From Clostridiales bacterium (GTDB lineage Bacteria > Bacillota_E > Sulfobacillia > Sulfobacillales > JAIMBI01), in contig DAHVOH010000130.1 of NCBI GenBank assembly GCA_027318915.1, positions 1 through 6,563 on the forward strand: a DNA stretch of 6,563 nt, written 5' to 3'. This document shows positions 1 through 6,425 of this stretch, one piece after another; the first letter of the stretch is position 1, and the number at the start of each line of letters is the position of its first letter. Both the position numbers and the translations under genes were made by a program. The notes beneath the pieces were generated by a model. That model was not told the DNA's origin. It saw only the letters and a list, made by a program, of their open reading frames with translations, and did not search any database.

Positions 1-228
1 CGGTTCATCAGCGCCCCGGTGGCCAGCGTCAGCGGCGAAAACGCTCTCCTCACCAACGGCCACATCATCAATTCATACTGGTGCTCGAAACGGGCGGGCA
101 CTTTGGTGACATTCGCCCAGCCCGGTGACCGTTTCGTTATCCAAACGGAAAAGATGCAGGGGGAGGGGGGGTGGATACAGGAGTGCGTCACCAAAATTGT
201 GTTCCCCAGCACGCCGCCCTCCAACTAA
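1..228 (+). CDS. C-terminal part of an unrecognised protein
   Basis: Reading frame 1 is open from the window edge to a TAA at 226-228, giving at least 75 residues of the end of a gene that starts outside the window. I do not recognise the family. The visible part has mixed composition, with residues such as W, C, Y and F spread through it. It includes a segment GTLVTFAQPGDRFVIQTEK that looks like a beta-strand, turn, beta-strand, and it ends in VFPSTPPSN. There are no membrane segments. A GTG at 19 is only an internal possibility and has no convincing ribosome binding site. The gene shares the strand of the csf genes but is separated from them by more than 500 bp, so it need not belong to the operon. 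It could be a Cas-related RAMP protein, but the glycine-rich loop that would show this is not visible. Confidence 0.45.
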   Translation, partial: RFISAPVASVSGENALLTNGHIINSYWCSKRAGTLVTFAQPGDRFVIQTEKMQGEGGWIQECVTKIVFPSTPPSN

Positions 229-257
229 CCCCCGCACGTGTGGAGACATCCCCACGC

Positions 258-278
258 CCCCCCTTCTCGCGAGGGGGG
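258..278. repeat. Strong C6/G6 hairpin, type I-C-repeat-like on the minus strand
   Basis: C258-C263 pairs with G273-G278, extended by T264-A272, around a loop that includes the palindrome CTCGCGAG (266-273). It lies 30 bp after the stop codon of the upstream gene fragment. No T tract follows on the + strand, so it is a poor intrinsic terminator. Read on the minus strand from 280 it begins GTCCCCCC, and after the hairpin it continues GCGTGGGGATG. That recalls the GTC...GCGTGGATTGAAA layout of type I-C CRISPR repeats. Only one copy is present. Confidence 0.5.
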
Positions 279-304
279 ACAACGGAGTTGGCCGATGACT
301 CGAT

Positions 305-370
305 AATGCGCAACCGCATTCTTGTCTTCGCGCCTCTCGACGCATTTCCCCTAGCACTGGGAGAATGCGT
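305..370. repeat. Cluster of four AATGCG motifs in alternating orientation
   Basis: AATGCG (305-310) and CGCATT (315-320) form a perfect 6-bp inverted repeat with a 4-nt loop. A second pair, ACGCATT (340-346) and AATGCGT (364-370), forms a 7-bp inverted repeat whose arms continue inward with CCC (348-350) and GGG (359-361). Four copies of one 6-mer in 66 bp, arranged head to head, look like paired operator half-sites or two tandem hairpins. No protein in the window is an obvious DNA-binding regulator. Confidence 0.45.
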
Positions 371-634
371 ATCAGGGGGCCAAGGCCCTTGATGAAAGGT
401 TGATGGTGTGGACCGCCTCGCACATTCGGGGCCACGGCCCTACACCGCCGATGACTTGGGTAGAGGGTAGACTTGGCTCGGTCCCACAGATGGGAACTGG
501 ATTAGCGCCGGATGGATGCGGCACGCTATCTCGCGGCCTGCGTTGCTGATGATGCTACTCTGATGGCTACCGTGCTGAAACCCGCTCTCACCCAACCCGG
601 GTAATCCGAGAAATACCCGATCCCACCTGTCGGA

Positions 635-662
635 GTCCGCCCTCTGTGCGTGGGGGCTATCT
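635..662 (+). repeat. Degenerate CRISPR repeat, first of an upstream mini-array
   Basis: Aligned without gaps to the consensus repeat of the array at 5910, this 28-nt stretch matches at about 20 of 28 positions. It keeps the GTC start, the GTGGGGG block (650-656) and the TATC end (658-661). It differs in the first stem arm and loop, which read CTGTG where the array has ACGCA. It can still fold: G639-C644 pairs with G652-C657 around a 7-nt loop, TGTGCGT. The T-to-C change at repeat position 23 (657) supplies an extra G-C pair. It has the same strand and orientation as the array. Confidence 0.7.
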
Positions 663-694
663 GTACGCGAGTACTCGATCGGCGGTGGACCGTG
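663..694 (+). other. 32-nt spacer-like segment between two degenerate repeats
   Basis: The segment between the two degenerate repeats is 32 nt, matching the 32-34 nt spacers of the downstream array. It contains the perfect palindrome CGAGTACTCG (668-677) and a GTAC direct repeat (663-666 and 671-674). By eye I found no extended match to it elsewhere in the window. It could be the guide part of a regulatory crRNA-like transcript, a fossil spacer, or an operator for the csf operon. Confidence 0.5.
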
Positions 695-722
695 GTCGGC
701 CCCCTGTGTGTGGGGTTGCCCC
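695..722 (+). repeat. Degenerate CRISPR repeat, second of an upstream mini-array
   Basis: With a one-base gap this matches the array repeat at about 18 of 28 positions. It keeps GTC, GCCCC (699-703) and GTGGGG (710-715). It shares with the repeat at 635 the substitutions C, T, T and G at repeat positions 10, 11, 13 and 14, so the two are more alike in the loop than either is to the array. The hairpin is C701-C704 with G712-G715 around a 7-nt loop, TGTGTGT. GGC (698-700) can also pair with GCC (718-720). It starts 60 nt after the previous copy; the array period is 60-62 nt. Confidence 0.65.
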
Positions 723-731
723 ACGGCCGAC
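695..731 (+). promoter_or_regulatory. Long stem-loop in the putative csf1 5' leader
   Basis: GTCGGCC (695-701) is perfectly complementary to GGCCGAC (725-731), and inside it GTGGGG (710-715) is perfectly complementary to CCCCAC (719-724) with a TTG loop. This makes 13 base pairs interrupted only by an 8-nt bulge on the 5' side (702-709). The structure uses the same G712-G715 block that pairs with C701-C704 in the repeat-like hairpin, so the two folds exclude each other. It ends 23 nt before the csf1 Shine-Dalgarno sequence (755-761). If transcribed, it could act as a processing site, a protein-binding site or a switch. The transcription start is unknown. Confidence 0.5.
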
Positions 732-772
732 TTTCTGCTTCCTCTATTCACCCCAAGGAGGTTTGGTCACCA

Positions 773-1900
773 ATGTCCACATCCGGTTTGTTGTTGGCGC
801 CCGATACGCCTGACCTTGCCTCGCCAGAACGAGAATTTCTGCGGCCCCATGACTTTCTTCTTCCCTATATCATGGAATGGGAGGGGCCCACCGATGCGCA
901 GGTGGTGGCCGCCATGGCTCAGGACCGTCCTGTCGCCAAGAAGCGCCGCACACGCCGGGGCGATCCCCGGCTATCTGACTTCCACATCACCGCCGGCCCA
1001 TCGGACGTCGCCCTCGGCCCTCCGCCGACGGTGGACATGGAACATTGCGCCGTTTGCGGCGTCACCGTCAACGCACCGAAGAAAAAACCCGGCAAGAAGA
1101 GCGGGACTGCCACGGAACCCCCGAAGGCGGCCAAGAAGACGCCTCGGGCTCCTTGGTGCCAAACCTGTCAGACCGCTCGCAGCCGTCTGAACGCCCGCCG
1201 TCAACTTACGCTCGCCGTCCGCCCCAACCGTGACCACCTTCCCTGCGCCCTCTGTGGCTGTACGGCCAGTGCGGTCCTTCCCGTGGACCAAATCTTTGCC
1301 GATCACGACAAGGCATCGGCCTTTGGTGACCCTGCGGGCTGGGTGCGCCGCGATTCCGCCTGGACGTGCCTCCCCTGTGCCAGTGTTTACGCCGTGACGG
1401 GCGTGAGATCGGGTAAGTTGTGGGCGTTTGCCTTCGCACAGGCCCCTGACGGATCCCTGACGGTCGCCTTGCATCAAGAAGTTCCCTGGTGGGACGCCCC
1501 CGCATCGCCCAGTTTAGTGGTGTATCACCGGGGTCAGACGGGCGGCATCGTCCAGCGTCTCGCCCGGACGGAGGTCTCCGTCGATCCGGACACCGTGATC
1601 ATCAACGTCATCGACAGCACAAACCGCTATCCCACCCGACTCACGTTCCCCCGAGCCAGTCCCGACATGCAAACCGCGATTCGCCACATGGCCGCGACGC
1701 TGACGACCCTGATTCCCCCCGCTAAGAAAAATGACGGCAAGCCAGAGAAGTACCCGCCCGAGTTCTGGACTCTCTTGACCCAGTGTGTGACAGAACTTTT
1801 ACCTCCCACCGCACACGCAAGCCCGCTGTGGCAGGAAACCCGACACCAACTTTGGCTTGAGGCCCAGCGCGGGGTTGCTACCCCTAAGGAGGTTCTTTAA
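773..1900 (+). CDS. csf1: Csf1-like zinc-finger subunit of a type IV CRISPR complex
   Basis: A 375-residue protein encoded first in the operon. The start is ATG 773, preceded by AAGGAGG at 755-761; an in-frame extension to 650 would run through the repeat-like hairpins and has no ribosome binding site. Four CxxC pairs are visible: C92/C95 with C129/C132, and C158/C161 with C199/C202. They suggest two four-cysteine zinc sites, the second ending in WTCLPC. A basic patch (KKRRTRR, about 56-62) and a lysine/proline-rich insert (about 101-127) inside the first zinc site could contact nucleic acid. Csf1 is the signature type IV protein, holds a zinc finger and is thought to act like the Cas8/large subunit. 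From memory, this one is longer than typical IV-A Csf1. The assignment rests on the cysteines and the gene order more than on recognisable sequence identity. No nuclease motif is seen. Confidence 0.72.
   Translation: MSTSGLLLAPDTPDLASPEREFLRPHDFLLPYIMEWEGPTDAQVVAAMAQDRPVAKKRRTRRGDPRLSDFHITAGPSDVALGPPPTVDMEHCAVCGVTVNAPKKKPGKKSGTATEPPKAAKKTPRAPWCQTCQTARSRLNARRQLTLAVRPNRDHLPCALCGCTASAVLPVDQIFADHDKASAFGDPAGWVRRDSAWTCLPCASVYAVTGVRSGKLWAFAFAQAPDGSLTVALHQEVPWWDAPASPSLVVYHRGQTGGIVQRLARTEVSVDPDTVIINVIDSTNRYPTRLTFPRASPDMQTAIRHMAATLTTLIPPAKKNDGKPEKYPPEFWTLLTQCVTELLPPTAHASPLWQETRHQLWLEAQRGVATPKEVL
1886..1892 (+). promoter_or_regulatory. Ribosome binding site of csf2 inside csf1
   Basis: AAGGAGG is a full anti-Shine-Dalgarno match lying within the last codons of csf1, 11 nt before the csf2 ATG. 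It is the same 7-mer at the same spacing as at csf1 (755-761). It fixes ATG 1904 as the start and implies efficient translation of the backbone subunit. Confidence 0.8.
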
Positions 1901-1903
1901 CCG

Positions 1904-2914
1904 ATGGAGACCGGAACGCGCATTCTCATTGATGCCACTGCCTACGAGCCGATTCTGAACGCTCGGGTGCCTTATCAAACCGGTAAGAACACGGACTCCG
2001 ACAAAAACAACGAACAGCACGACATCGAGCCCCAGCAAATGCGGGTGCTGGTTGAAGACCCGGTGACCGGTGCCCGGGACCCCCTCACCATCCCGGTGGT
2101 GACCGGCAATTCCGTGGGCGGCTCGCTCCGCCGCCTGCTCTTGCACGACCTGCTGGCTCGCCTGGATCTGACCCGCCCCCTCATCGCCGAACATGCGGGC
2201 CACAGCGAAAACGTACGCCTCTTGTATCACACGCTTCAGAATGGAGGCACCCTCGGGGCTGGCGACTTGGTGCCCCCCTGGACGCTGGAGACGGAAGAAG
2301 CCATTCGGCAGGAGTGGCCCGTCTGGAGTGTGCTCGGCTGTTCCATCGGCAGCCGCATGATCACCTCGCGCATTTCCCTGCACGCCTTGCGCCCGGCATC
2401 CCGCCAGCTCGCGGCGCTTTTCCCCGACGACCCTGCCTTCCACCAGCGCCTACAGACGTTCGACCCTGCCACTTGCCTCGTATCGGCCCGCGATCCCGCC
2501 GGCACGTCCGGCGCTCGGCACGCCGACGGCCTGGTGCCTTATCCCGACATCAAGAAGGGGGGCAAGCTCCTGTACCGCAGCATGGTGCAACCCCACCGGG
2601 GCTACATCGCCGCGGGTACTCCGCTCTTGGGCTGGATCGAGGTCCTGAGTCCGCTGACTCCCGTGGAAGCTGGCCTCCTGAGTCATGGTCTCCAACTGTT
2701 GCAAGCTCACGGGCGCTTCGGCGGTTGGGGGCACAGTGGGTTCGGCGGCGCCGCCATCCGTATTGTCGGGCACGGTGATCCGGCCCCCTATCTGACGTGG
2801 GTCACCGACCATCGCCCGGTGTTGCAGGACTATCTGACCGGGCACACCTGCCCCACCTGGATGAAGGCCGTGGCGGCTAAGCAGGGAACCGGGATCGACG
2901 CGGAGGAGGACTAA
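1904..2914 (+). CDS. csf2: Csf2, Cas7-like crRNA-binding backbone subunit
   Basis: A 336-residue RAMP-type protein that starts 3 nt after the csf1 stop. The segment IPVVTGNSVGGSLRRLLLHDL (about 63-83) is the hallmark of Csf2/Cas7-group proteins, where a G-N-S-x-G-G/R motif leads into an arginine-rich helix. A glycine-rich stretch near the end, RFGGWGHSGFGGAAIRI (about 271-287), fits the conserved glycine loop of the RAMP fold. The N-terminal part (21-60) with the acidic, asparagine-rich QTGKNTDSDKNNEQHD segment would be a surface loop or thumb. In known type IV complexes several Csf2 copies polymerise along the crRNA spacer; here this is inferred from the family. I see no conserved aspartate that would clearly mark the backbone RNase activity of type III Cas7, and none is expected in type IV. 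The position between csf1 and csf3 supports the call. Confidence 0.83.
   Translation: METGTRILIDATAYEPILNARVPYQTGKNTDSDKNNEQHDIEPQQMRVLVEDPVTGARDPLTIPVVTGNSVGGSLRRLLLHDLLARLDLTRPLIAEHAGHSENVRLLYHTLQNGGTLGAGDLVPPWTLETEEAIRQEWPVWSVLGCSIGSRMITSRISLHALRPASRQLAALFPDDPAFHQRLQTFDPATCLVSARDPAGTSGARHADGLVPYPDIKKGGKLLYRSMVQPHRGYIAAGTPLLGWIEVLSPLTPVEAGLLSHGLQLLQAHGRFGGWGHSGFGGAAIRIVGHGDPAPYLTWVTDHRPVLQDYLTGHTCPTWMKAVAAKQGTGIDAEED
2902..2909 (+). promoter_or_regulatory. Ribosome binding site of csf3 inside csf2
   Basis: GGAGGAGG overlaps the glutamate codons at the end of csf2, 9 nt before ATG 2919. It supports this start and coupling of csf2 and csf3 translation. Confidence 0.75.
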
Positions 2915-2918
2915 GGCC

Positions 2919-3617
2919 ATGGCCGTGGTTGAAGTGACGGGAACCCTCCTGGCCCCCGTTGTGCTTCCAGCGGTTGGTTTCATGCCGGGCGACGCCTTGC
3001 TGCATACGGCGGCCGTCCGCCAACGCTACGCGGACACTTGGGCCACGCGATCCCCCGCAGTCTGGGACGAGATTCCCCTGCCGGTGGCGTACCGGGACGG
3101 CGTGCCCCTCGTCTCCTGCATCACCTTGCCCCAGGCCGTCCGCGGCACCGCCTCCCACGCGAAATTGACCGATCCTTTGGTGCTGGCCGGGCACCGGGCC
3201 GAGGTCCCCTCCGCTCTCAGCTACATGTACAAGGGCGCGATTATGCAGGATCACACCTGGCATGCGCCCACCTTTCAGTTCTGGTGCGAGGTCCCGTCAG
3301 ATCGGGAGGAGGACTTCTGTGACCTGCTTGAGGCGCTCGACTTCCTCTCGCTCGGCGTCCGGCGTCATACGGGCTTTGGCCGCATCGGACGCGTCAGCGC
3401 CACGGTAGTGGATCAGTCCTCGGCGCTCTTCGACCCGACCGGGCGGCTGCTGCGCCCGGTGCCGATCACCTGGCACGCCACGCCCCCGCCCGCCGCCCAT
3501 CGCCGGGCGGTCCGGCTCGCGCCGCCGTATTGGACCGGGCCGGTTCACGCGGCCTTTTGTCCCCTCCCCACCACCCTGTATGGAGGTGAAGCCCATGGCG
3601 GCTTCGTTGACGGGTAA
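2919..3617 (+). CDS. csf3: Csf3, Cas5-like subunit of a type IV CRISPR complex
   Basis: A 232-residue RAMP-family protein that starts 4 nt after csf2. The best evidence is the glycine-rich segment LSLGVRRHTGFGRIGRV (about 143-159), a typical Cas5/Cas7 RAMP loop in which GFG and G-R residues contact crRNA. Near the C-terminus, VRLAPPYW (198-205) followed by a stretch of hydrophobic residues looks like the conserved end of Csf3. In type IV complexes Csf3 is believed to cap the 5' repeat-derived handle of the crRNA, as Cas5 does in type I. Residues 75-110, with K82, R93, K105 and an SALSYMYKGA stretch, may form the handle-gripping thumb; this is inference. The last 23 nt overlap the start of the helicase gene, so the two are translationally coupled. 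No histidine pair typical of a catalytic Cas5d or Cas6 is obvious, but that cannot be excluded by eye. Confidence 0.8.
   Translation: MAVVEVTGTLLAPVVLPAVGFMPGDALLHTAAVRQRYADTWATRSPAVWDEIPLPVAYRDGVPLVSCITLPQAVRGTASHAKLTDPLVLAGHRAEVPSALSYMYKGAIMQDHTWHAPTFQFWCEVPSDREEDFCDLLEALDFLSLGVRRHTGFGRIGRVSATVVDQSSALFDPTGRLLRPVPITWHATPPPAAHRRAVRLAPPYWTGPVHAAFCPLPTTLYGGEAHGGFVDG
3582..3589 (+). promoter_or_regulatory. Ribosome binding site that fixes the recD start
   Basis: GGAGGTGA lies 5 nt before ATG 3595. The in-frame ATG at 3580 overlaps this motif and has no ribosome binding site of its own, so the start at 3595 is preferred. The signal lies inside the csf3 coding sequence. Confidence 0.7.
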
Positions 3618-5841
3618 GCCAGATGCGGAGGTCGGCCTGGCCGCCGGGTTCCGCGATCTCATGCGCACGGAACTTCCCGCCTTGATTCGCATCGGTGACC
3701 TACCGGACCCCGTGGCCGAAAACCTTCTACTGACGCCGCGCATCATTCAGCGCTGGCTCAGTGGGGTCGCTCCCATGCCATTGGAAGCCGCCGCGTTACA
3801 CTACACGGACAGCACCTGGACGGAGATCCAACGGGTGTGCGATGACGCGCTGGACAACGCCTTTACGCCTGCGTGGCAGTGGATCGACGAGGCCCCGACC
3901 CCGGTTCGAGCGTTCTGGCACCCTGCGCGCCGCACCCGAGCCGCACGGATTCTGCTGACGTGGTGGCGCAACAACGCCAAGGTCGCTGCGGTCATCAGCC
4001 AAGCCCGCACCAATCCCTACGTGCTGATGACGGTGGCCCTGGGGGAGTTTGACACCACCCCTCGGCAGTTGTACCACATCTGCACTCAAAGTGCCCCCGC
4101 CGATCTCCCATGGCTCAGTCGTGCCCGCGGTGCCGTGCTGACGGCGGTGGCCGAACGGAACAACCAGCACCGTCTCCCGTTTGTTCTGCGCGGCGCCGAC
4201 TCCAAACCGGGTCCCATCCTGACCACGGCCGCCCAGTTGCTCAGTCCCCGCCACCCCCAAGAGGCCGAAGCGATGGCCCAGCACCTGGTGGAGCAGGTCT
4301 ACACCCTCTTGCCCTGTGCCACCGTCCAACACGCGGACGAGGCACCGTCCCCTGAAGACGCCTCGATGTCCACCAGCGGCACGGTCTCGGCGCAGTTTGC
4401 CGAATGGCCCGTGTCCATGCACTTGATGCTCCGGGAACGGGACAAGATGCTGTCGGGGGTGCCCAGTTGGTTTCACTGGGCGCGGGCCGGGGCCGCCCAG
4501 CGGATTTGGGCACGATACTCCACACCGGCGACTCCGATCGATCCCTCCCTCTTGGCGGAGATTGACCACGCCACGGTGGGCGGTAAACCACTCGCTCCCG
4601 AGCAACGCCTTGCCCTCCAGCGTGCCTTTTCGACTGCCCTCTCCCTGGTCACCGGGGGACCGGGAACAGGGAAAACCGCCCTGTGTCAAACGTTGGCGAC
4701 CATTGCCGCCCAGCACCACATGGTTGTGCGCGGATTTGCCCCCACCGGGCGGGCCGCTCGCCGACTCCAAGAAATCACCGGCATTCCCAGCGCCACAATT
4801 CACAGCACGCTGATGACCGGCGGATACACGCGCAAGGGTAGCATGCCGCCCTGCACCATCGCCGTGGTGGATGAGTGTTCGATGCTGGACACCCGGACCC
4901 TGGCCGCTGTGCTGCTGGCGAGTCAAGGCGTGGCCCCGCATGTGGTCCTGTTGGGAGACCGCGATCAACTGCCGCCCGTCGAGGGCACCGACTCCTGGAC
5001 CGCCTTGTTGACGGTCCTGCAAGAGCGGGGCGGAGCGGTCACGACTTTGCGCCACACGTTCCGCCATGATGCGGTGACGCTCAATGCGCACTGGCTCTTC
5101 GATGACCGACCCGGTGCCTGGGACTGGAACGACACGATCATCGGACTCCCCTTGCCCCAGGAGGAAGAAGACGGGTTGGACTCGTCTGTGCGGGCGTGGC
5201 TTGACCAGCGGCCCCTCACCGACGCCGAGACCGATTGGCAAGTCATCGCCTACACCAAGAACACGGTCAAGGCGCTGAACGGCATCATCCGCCATCACCT
5301 GCTGGGGGCCCAAGACGATGGCTGGGTGGTGGGTGATCGGGTTATGCAGATCGTCAACGACTACGATGTGGATCTCCGGAACGGCGAGCAAGGCGTCATC
5401 CGCCAGGTGACGGCACGGAAAGTGACGGCCCAGTTTGGAGACCGCTCGGTCACCGTAGCGCCGTCGTACACGCTGGCCCACTGGACCCCCGCCTGGGCGA
5501 TCACGGCGCACAAGTCGCAAGGCGGTGAATGGCACGACATCTTGGTGGTGGCCACTGAAGTCGAGGGCACTCACATTTGGTCGCGCGAAGCGCTGTATAC
5601 CGCACTGACCCGCGTGGCCGGCGGAACGGTTTCGGTCTTAGCCCCGGACCCTACAGCGGTGGTCATGCGCGCCAAAGCCACCCCAGCCAAGCGTAGCGGC
5701 AACTTCTCCTACGAACCCTACCTGAAGATCCTGTTCACCAAGAAGCAGGGGAGTCCCGATCCCCAGCCCGTCGCCCGGCACAAAAAGGCGTTGCAACGCG
5801 CTGCAGTTCAACCACCGCCAGAGATTGCCTCCACGACTTGA
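3595..5841 (+). CDS. recD: RecD2-like superfamily 1B helicase, subtype IV-D accessory
   Basis: A 748-residue helicase, about the usual RecD2 length. Numbering from ATG 3595: an N-terminal region (about 1-300) includes NPYVLMTVALGEF (140-152) and a following helical stretch typical of RecD2; Walker A is GGPGTGKT (354-361), motif Ia APTGRAARRLQE (382-393), motif II VVDECSML (424-431), motif III LGDRDQLPPVEG (453-464), and motif IV LRHTFRH (485-491) where most RecD proteins have FRQ. The domain 2B segment GDRVMQIVNDYD is at 580-591, motif V ITAHKSQGGEW at 636-646 and motif VI REALYTALTR at 664-673. All catalytic residues are present, so it should hydrolyse ATP and move 5'-3' on single-stranded DNA. 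A basic, proline-containing tail follows (about 690-748). In IV-A, DinG is needed for interference; RecD replaces it in IV-D. Being last in the csf operon and overlapping csf3, it is very likely the effector helicase and not a housekeeping RecD. Confidence 0.9.
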   Translation: MAASLTGKPDAEVGLAAGFRDLMRTELPALIRIGDLPDPVAENLLLTPRIIQRWLSGVAPMPLEAAALHYTDSTWTEIQRVCDDALDNAFTPAWQWIDEAPTPVRAFWHPARRTRAARILLTWWRNNAKVAAVISQARTNPYVLMTVALGEFDTTPRQLYHICTQSAPADLPWLSRARGAVLTAVAERNNQHRLPFVLRGADSKPGPILTTAAQLLSPRHPQEAEAMAQHLVEQVYTLLPCATVQHADEAPSPEDASMSTSGTVSAQFAEWPVSMHLMLRERDKMLSGVPSWFHWARAGAAQRIWARYSTPATPIDPSLLAEIDHATVGGKPLAPEQRLALQRAFSTALSLVTGGPGTGKTALCQTLATIAAQHHMVVRGFAPTGRAARRLQEITGIPSATIHSTLMTGGYTRKGSMPPCTIAVVDECSMLDTRTLAAVLLASQGVAPHVVLLGDRDQLPPVEGTDSWTALLTVLQERGGAVTTLRHTFRHDAVTLNAHWLFDDRPGAWDWNDTIIGLPLPQEEEDGLDSSVRAWLDQRPLTDAETDWQVIAYTKNTVKALNGIIRHHLLGAQDDGWVVGDRVMQIVNDYDVDLRNGEQGVIRQVTARKVTAQFGDRSVTVAPSYTLAHWTPAWAITAHKSQGGEWHDILVVATEVEGTHIWSREALYTALTRVAGGTVSVLAPDPTAVVMRAKATPAKRSGNFSYEPYLKILFTKKQGSPDPQPVARHKKALQRAAVQPPPEIASTT

Positions 5842-5909
5842 ACCGATGCCCCCGACGACGATCTACCAGTTCTGGTATGGTTCAGGGTTTGTACGGTCTA
5901 TCCCTTGGT
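5842..5909 (+). promoter_or_regulatory. Short CRISPR leader with a 14-bp palindrome
   Basis: Only 68 bp separate the recD stop from the first repeat. They contain TACCAG-TT-CTGGTA (5864-5877), a perfect 6-bp inverted repeat around TT, which could be a protein-binding site or a small hairpin. A weak extended -10-like sequence TGGTATGGT (5873-5881) overlaps it, without a good -35. The array is either read through from the csf operon or has a promoter here. This is the leader side because the degenerate repeat is at the other end. Confidence 0.45.
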
Positions 5910-6425
5910 GTCAGCCCCACGCACGTGGGGGTTATCGGTGTGGCATTTTGCGCGGTCAGCGCCTCGCCCACGTCAGCCCCACGCACGTGGGGGTTATCGC
6001 GCTAGCAGTTCGCCCTTGGGACCGGTGATCACGTCAGCCCCACGCACGTGGGGGTTATCGGGGTGAGTGAGGTGCGCAGGATTACAAGAGAGCGTCAGCC
6101 CCACGCACGTGGGGGTTATCGGCAGATGACCGACTCCGCAGTTCAAGCAGTGATGTCAGCCCCACGCATGTGGGGGTTATCGTCGGTGGGCGGCGGCGAT
6201 CATCGAGCCCCAGAGTCAGCCCCACGCATGTGGGGGTTATCGCGACTTGGGAGCCGCGTAGGTCATCTCCCAACCGTCAGCCCCACGCACGTGGGGGTTA
6301 TCGCCAATTTCGGCCGGTGGGTCAGGTGTCGATGCCGTCAGCCCCACGCATGTGGGGGTTATCGTTGCCTTCCGAAAACCGTCAGAGTTATCGATGCGAC
6401 AGTCCTACAGTCGTGGGGGTTTTTG
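5910..6425 (+). CRISPR. CRISPR array, 28-nt I-E-like repeats, 8 spacers
   Basis: Eight near-identical 28-nt repeats start at 5910, 5972, 6033, 6094, 6155, 6215, 6276 and 6337, and a degenerate ninth starts at 6398. Each begins GTCAG, has a CCCCAC-GCAY-GTGGGG hairpin with a 6-bp stem, and ends GTTATCG. The only variation in the first eight is C or T at repeat position 15, in the loop: C in repeats 1-4 and 7, T in 5, 6 and 8. Spacers are 5938-5971 (34 nt), 6000-6032, 6061-6093, 6122-6154 (33 each), 6183-6214 (32), 6243-6275, 6304-6336 and 6365-6397 (33 each). All differ overall. The repeat resembles type I-E repeats, as is common for type IV systems. Processing would need a Cas6 cutting at the 3' base of the stem and leaving a handle of about 7-8 nt; no cas6 is present in the window. 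Newest spacers should be at the 5910 end. Confidence 0.97.
6398..6425 (+). terminator. Degenerate terminal repeat that also resembles a terminator
   Basis: This unit sits exactly one array period (61 nt) after the last good repeat and matches it at 20 of 28 positions. All changes in the stem keep pairing: C-to-T at repeat positions 6 and 9 (6403 and 6406) give G:U pairs, while the loop is changed at three of four bases. Changes at positions 25 and 27 turn the GTTATCG tail into GTTTTTG, so the hairpin is now followed at once by T5 (6420-6424). The result looks like a weak rho-independent terminator made from a repeat. Confidence 0.55.

Follow-up and report, generated by a model that had tools for sequence, protein, structure and literature searches.

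Does a type IV-D CRISPR operon keep a guide gene of its own, apart from its immune array? Most type IV complexes are without a known nuclease and are able to act as repressors. The window analyzed here, a stretch of 6,563 nucleotides, carries such an operon, and two degenerate repeat-like units enclosing one spacer-like segment stand just upstream of its first gene. The locus thus raises three questions: whether the pair is real, whether it has the anatomy of a crRNA source, and where a guide made from it could act.

The type IV-D operon and its main array

The operon reads along the plus strand. It begins with a CxxC-rich gene in the csf1 position (773..1900), named from that position, and continues with csf2 (Cas7-like, 1904..2914), csf3 (Cas5-like, 2919..3617), and a gene for a RecD-family helicase, the mark of subtype IV-D (3580..5841). 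PADLOC profiles matched Csf2 (8e-30), Csf3 (1.7e-19), and RecD_0_IVD (2.8e-41), in agreement with the type IV-D operon of the first-pass annotation. The helicase also matched Pfam AAA_30 (4.2e-31), and a profile comparison of csf2 with the solved Csf2 structure 7jhy gave E 0.0019. Type IV-D is defined by csf2 and csf3 together with a RecD-family helicase replacing DinG, as described in PMC7434947 and PMC11127173. Judged by its gene content, the operon is type IV-D, with csf2, csf3, and a RecD-family helicase instead of DinG. No cas6 was found in the window.

The protein in the csf1 position matched no Pfam, PADLOC, or NCBIfam profile at E 0.001, and looser profile scans gave weak unrelated matches only. 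A structural model built from three sequences had a mean pLDDT of 44, indicating a poor fold. The position and the CxxC motifs suggest that it may be a very diverged Csf1. The N-termini of two relatives (57 and 59% identity) align at the start at 773; thus, the stretch 635-722 lies upstream of the csf1 coding region. The ribosome-binding stretches of csf1 (751-775) and csf2 (1882-1906) are 76% alike over 25 nt.

The main CRISPR array (5910..6425, plus strand) has eight 28-nt repeats that are nearly identical, followed by a ninth (6398-6425) that is degenerate; its repeat period is 60-62 nt, and its eight spacers measure 32-34 nt. The ninth repeat keeps 14/20 and 6/8 of the repeat in its first and last parts, and a T run stands at its end.

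Two repeat-like units upstream of csf1

The first unit, psiR1 (635..662), matches the array repeat at 20/28 positions, and the second, psiR2 (695..722), matches it at 17/28 for the repeats with CACG and 18/28 for those with CATG. The first-pass annotation had placed two such units here at 20/28 and 18/28 identity, in the orientation of the main array, 60 nt apart, and around a 32-nt segment (663..694). Its coordinates, orientation, and spacing were all borne out, as was its value for psiR1; its value for psiR2 holds for the CATG variant. The GTC start, the CCC arm, and GTGGGG, which it had listed as kept, are present in both units.

psiR1 and psiR2 are the two best plus-strand matches to the repeat outside the array; two places on the minus strand equal psiR2 at 18/28. 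For the pair, we added up the scores of any two units lying 58-64 nt apart; psiR1 and psiR2 together gave 38. This score was reached by none of 2000 shuffles of 229-772 and by none of 400 and then 3000 further shuffles of 1-5880, among which the best was 36. When the repeat itself was shuffled, the single-repeat pair score of 37 was reached in 0/3000 trials (best 36), and five control stretches gave a maximum of 34. The comparison with shuffled sequence named in the first-pass annotation therefore came out clearly for the pair, which beats all shuffles, and weakly for the single units. A lone 20/28 match occurred in 68/3000 and 12/400 shuffles of 1-5880 and in 1/2000 shuffles of 229-772. With a covariance model trained on the main array only, psiR1 scored E = 0.021 and psiR2 E = 3.7; unrelated coding places reached E = 0.027 and 0.04. 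Since each unit is weak alone, the evidence lies in the pair, its spacing, and its place. We therefore regard the psiR1-psiR2 pair as real. At the array period, further positions matched the repeat at only 3-11/28. Rfam gave one match, under its gathering score.

Anatomy of the units

Both units can fold a hairpin at the place of the hairpin in the array repeat. Shuffled sequences folded as well in 15/200 cases for psiR1, 55/200 for psiR2, and 5/200 for the array repeat. When the stem of the repeat was laid on five sequences, 93% of the cells were paired, compared with 47-70% when it was slid out of register, and the 3' arm GTGGGG was present in 5/5. No covariation was seen among these five sequences; because no stem pair was altered on both sides, the stem does not amount to proof by covariation. 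As a whole, the 88-nt RNA folded no better than shuffles (z 0.29), nor did 560-790 (z -0.39).

The two units are alike in an uneven way. They are identical at 17/20 positions in their first 20 nt and at 2/8 in their last 8 nt. This 20|8 break had p 0.005 when it was set beforehand from the usual 8-nt handle, and any break as strong appeared in 13/3000 permutations. An 8-nt handle is assumed for this repeat; that length has been published for creA and for crRNAs of type I-B (PMC8501985). Of the handle bases of the array, psiR1 keeps 6/8 (655-662) and psiR2 3/8; the loss in the last 8 nt of psiR2, taken alone, is not significant (p 0.08-0.12). Because the break falls at the expected Cas6 cut, the part needed in a crRNA appears to have been kept and the unused tail lost. 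Terminal repeats of ordinary arrays are also often degenerate.

The first-pass annotation had called the units decayed. That they have diverged from the array is clear from the identities of 17-20/28; however, simple decay does not fully describe them. In the first 20 nt, each unit matches the array at 14/20 with one repeat variant, and the two match it at 15/20 and 13/20 with the other, thus at 13-15/20, whereas they agree with each other at 17/20. At positions 10, 11, 13, and 14, both units share a base that differs from the array. At least four such shared bases arise by chance in 1% of cases under uniform changes and in 6% under transition-biased changes. These four common bases suggest that the units are not simply decayed copies of the present repeat.

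No array-like leader precedes the pair: the 120 nt before the unit and the 120 nt before the array aligned with a score of 7 against a null mean of 9.4, and 990/1000 shuffles scored as well. A scan for sigma-70-like promoters gave 0 sites in 200-1000. The start of the guide-like segment (663-682) holds a quasi-palindrome, GTAC-GCGA-GTAC, with a possible 4-bp hairpin and a GNRA-type loop. It is overlapped by a 10-nt palindrome, CGAGTACTCG; 158 of 5000 shuffled 32-mers have one as long, and the eight main spacers have none above 8 nt. A self-pairing seed is odd for a guide and could be the mark of an operator.

Search for a target in the window

Two characterised creA guides pair with their target promoter through positions 1-5 and 7-11 (PMC8501985). 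We searched both strands for seed matches of the 663..694 segment, either as contiguous runs or skipping every sixth base, at guide starts from -2 to +2, and compared them with those of 200 shuffled guides. Within 229-800, the every-sixth rule gave a best run of 4 for the unshifted guide and of 5 when its start was shifted by one (shuffled median, 5). The best contiguous run within 440-800 was 4, which 184/200 shuffled guides reached. Over the whole window, contiguous pairing gave a best run of 6, matched by 180/200 shuffled guides, and the every-sixth rule gave a run of 8 (start -2, inside csf2), reached by 68/200. The best 12-base match (10/12) fell on the guide's own palindrome and was set aside; 107/200 shuffled guides reach at least 10 somewhere. 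The longest exact match elsewhere was 10 nt; it lies between guide positions 16-25, beyond the seed, and 443-452 of the minus strand.

The first-pass annotation had proposed an autoregulatory guide and a comparison of 663-694 with the csf promoter region. In that comparison, the best runs were no better than those of shuffled guides, and no seed match above chance was found in the region upstream of csf1 or in the rest of the 6563 bases. Autoregulation is therefore unsupported in this test, which relies on the seed rule of creA and on an upstream region in place of a mapped csf1 promoter.

No CreT-like toxin was seen in 229-760. This region has two short ORFs with a Shine-Dalgarno-like motif, neither of them with paired AGA or ATA codons. 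At 284-320, a GGAG is followed by a tiny ORF, ATG ACT CGA TAA (295-306), and by a hairpin with a T-rich tail (305-320), without paired rare codons.

Targets and relatives outside the window

A comparison of 655-702 with plasmids returned 15 records and with phages 3, none of them better than E 0.8; no exact copy of the guide's first 20 nt occurred in IMG/VR. For the main array, the best phage match was E 2 among the 20 listed of 31 records; plasmid matches began at E 8e-5 among the 20 listed of 44 records and were apparently other arrays.

Protein searches returned three relatives for Csf2 (78, 81, and 99%) and two further ones for Csf1 (57 and 59%). Among the best 120 of 565 RecD matches, two at 70-71% and two at 38-39% came ahead of general RecD2 proteins. 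The near relatives lie on contigs of <10 kb. A search of viral and genome contigs with Csf2, Csf1, and RecD queries and four DNA patterns, in which pattern matches were kept only if confirmed by tblastn, revealed no type IV-D locus. One candidate contig (L002) carried a RecD-family helicase and was rejected as a type IV-D locus. Plasmids and phages gave no match to Csf2, Csf1, or Csf3. RecD had 1656 plasmid matches at <60% identity; the check for csf genes covered one of the 15 listed, L001.

Discussion

At a probability of about one half, we favor the reading that the pair and the segment between its units form a leaderless one-guide CRISPR (psiR1-guide-psiR2) closely ahead of csf1, with a target somewhere beyond the window. 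The unit would be transcribed toward csf1, from its own promoter or within the 5' leader of the operon. A Cas6-type nuclease encoded outside the window may then cut at the base of both hairpins, as suggested by their folding capacity and the 20|8 break. The product would be one crRNA-like RNA, with the 8-nt handle from psiR1 ahead of the 32-nt guide and 20 nt from the start of psiR2 behind it. This RNA could load into the Csf complex as a fixed guide, untouched by turnover of the main array. Since no target was found in the window, its action is most likely elsewhere; candidate sites are the host chromosome, the rest of the replicon, and a competing plasmid.

The closest likeness is to the two-repeat form of creA in type I systems. 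These genes have strongly diverged repeats, no leader, and a handle better kept in the first repeat (PMC8501985), and the discussion of that paper extends the last trait to most two-repeat creA genes. In Halobacterium hubeiense, creA lies directly upstream of the cas operon (PMC8501985). The present unit similarly has diverged units around one guide, no leader, a place upstream of the effector operon, and a handle better kept in the first unit (6/8 vs 3/8); the identity between units is 19 of 30 bases there and 19 of 28 here. It differs in belonging to type IV-D and not type I and in the good agreement of its units in their first 20 nt, and no upstream seed target or CreT-like gene was found for it. 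A further creA trait is not clearly reproduced: in creA, the second repeat resembles the array in its first part more than the first repeat does, whereas here the figures are 14 vs 14 or 15 vs 13 of 20 according to the repeat variant. In CreTA, seed positions 1-5 and 7-11 pair with the promoter of a nearby toxin gene; such pairing was not seen here, where the best run was 5 of 10 in 229-800. It has been argued that creA repeats, by degenerating, avoid recombination and keep the guide tied to its own Cas proteins (PMC9458426).

CreR, a crRNA-like repressor of cas operons in types I and V-A (PMC12737573), is also comparable: a possible guide stands beside an effector operon with no evident tie to a toxin. 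In contrast, the guide here has no match to the upstream region of the operon, and type IV is not among the CreR types named in the part of PMC12737573 considered here. By its structure, as far as the sequence tells, the unit is creA-like; the tests made do not establish identity with creA or CreR. In type IV-A1 of Pseudomonas oleovorans, a self-targeting guide represses the host gene pilN (PMC11656645, PMC11551745), which offers a parallel for a type IV guide as a repressor of a host gene. That guide is described as a spacer of its type IV system, whereas here the unit is separate and diverged and no target was found. Viral mini-arrays and orphan arrays of plasmids resemble the unit as one-spacer arrays; the repeats of viral mini-arrays, however, are described as identical to those of the host (PMC11656645), whereas the repeats here have diverged and are next to the effector genes of their own system. 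Among the titles and opening lines of abstracts that our literature search covered, none describes a unit of this kind at a type IV-D operon; the surveys of Pinilla-Redondo 2020 and Moya-Beltran 2021 lay outside it, so that absence is unproven.

The main rival, to which we give substantial weight while doubting it, is a fossil: the operon would once have had a second array at its side, with a repeat slightly unlike that of today, and the pair would be what is left of it; no guide would be made, and the sequence would drift. An identity to the array repeat of only 60-70% fits this explanation, as do the missing leader and the searches of the window, plasmids, and phages, which found no target; the four bases that the units share against the array fit an array with another repeat. 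Against it, the spacing, the hairpin arms, and the psiR1 handle were kept and the loss fell mainly in the part that a mature crRNA does not use, and the four shared bases may be due to chance (1% uniform, 6% transition-favored).

Improbable, in our view, is a guide that sends the Csf complex to the promoter of csf1, as in CreR-like autoregulation, or to that of a nearby toxin, as the creA of a CreTA pair. The unit does lie directly upstream of the operon, as creTA does in H. hubeiense (PMC8501985), and type IV-A1 complexes are described as repressing at promoters without the helicase (PMC11551745). Nevertheless, the seed runs in 229-800 and 440-800 are no better than those of shuffled guides, and 229-760 has no short ORF that combines a Shine-Dalgarno-like motif with paired AGA or ATA codons. 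We consider it even less probable that the pair has a non-CRISPR origin, as two similar G+C-rich hairpins or operator sites with an accidental likeness to the repeat. The weak scores of the single units and the 10-nt palindrome between them would agree with such sites, yet a pair statistic of 0/3000, an array-like spacing, the common GTC start, the 6/8 handle of psiR1, and a hairpin in register speak against accident. What endures of the first-pass annotation is thus a degenerate one-spacer unit with creA anatomy beside a type IV-D operon; its autoregulatory role does not, for want of a seed match above chance.

A leaderless one-guide CRISPR at this place would have consequences for the role of type IV-D systems. 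We tentatively suggest, while thinking it rather unlikely, that such systems carry ahead of csf1 a minimal CRISPR of the creA/CreR kind as a dedicated gene for one fixed guide, through which the Csf complex would permanently repress a single gene of the host or of a plasmid, apart from the immune array. If so, the tie between a fixed guide gene and the operon would point to a regulatory role of type IV-D systems that can be tested, and type IV would join types I and V-A, for which the sources cited describe creA/CreR-like guides. If the unit has no function, it is a remnant; even a fossil would suggest that this operon formerly had beside it another array, whose repeat differed slightly from the present one.

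The stretch 406-498 on the minus strand is a candidate inverted and diverged copy of the whole mini-array. Depending on the scheme and the side shuffled, 24-124 of 5000 shuffles were as good, and coding controls reached its score in 2/4 schemes (47 segments) and 3/4 schemes (104 queries); because of these controls, we treat the copy as a lead. Outside the window, the phage-like IMG/VR contig L003, which was rejected as a type IV-D locus, carries another array. No evident cas gene was seen among its listed ORFs, as judged without profiles, and by eye an apparent tRNA 3' end follows the array, whose five repeats (2174-2438; GTCCGCCCCACGCACGTGGGG and on) are spaced at 61 nt.
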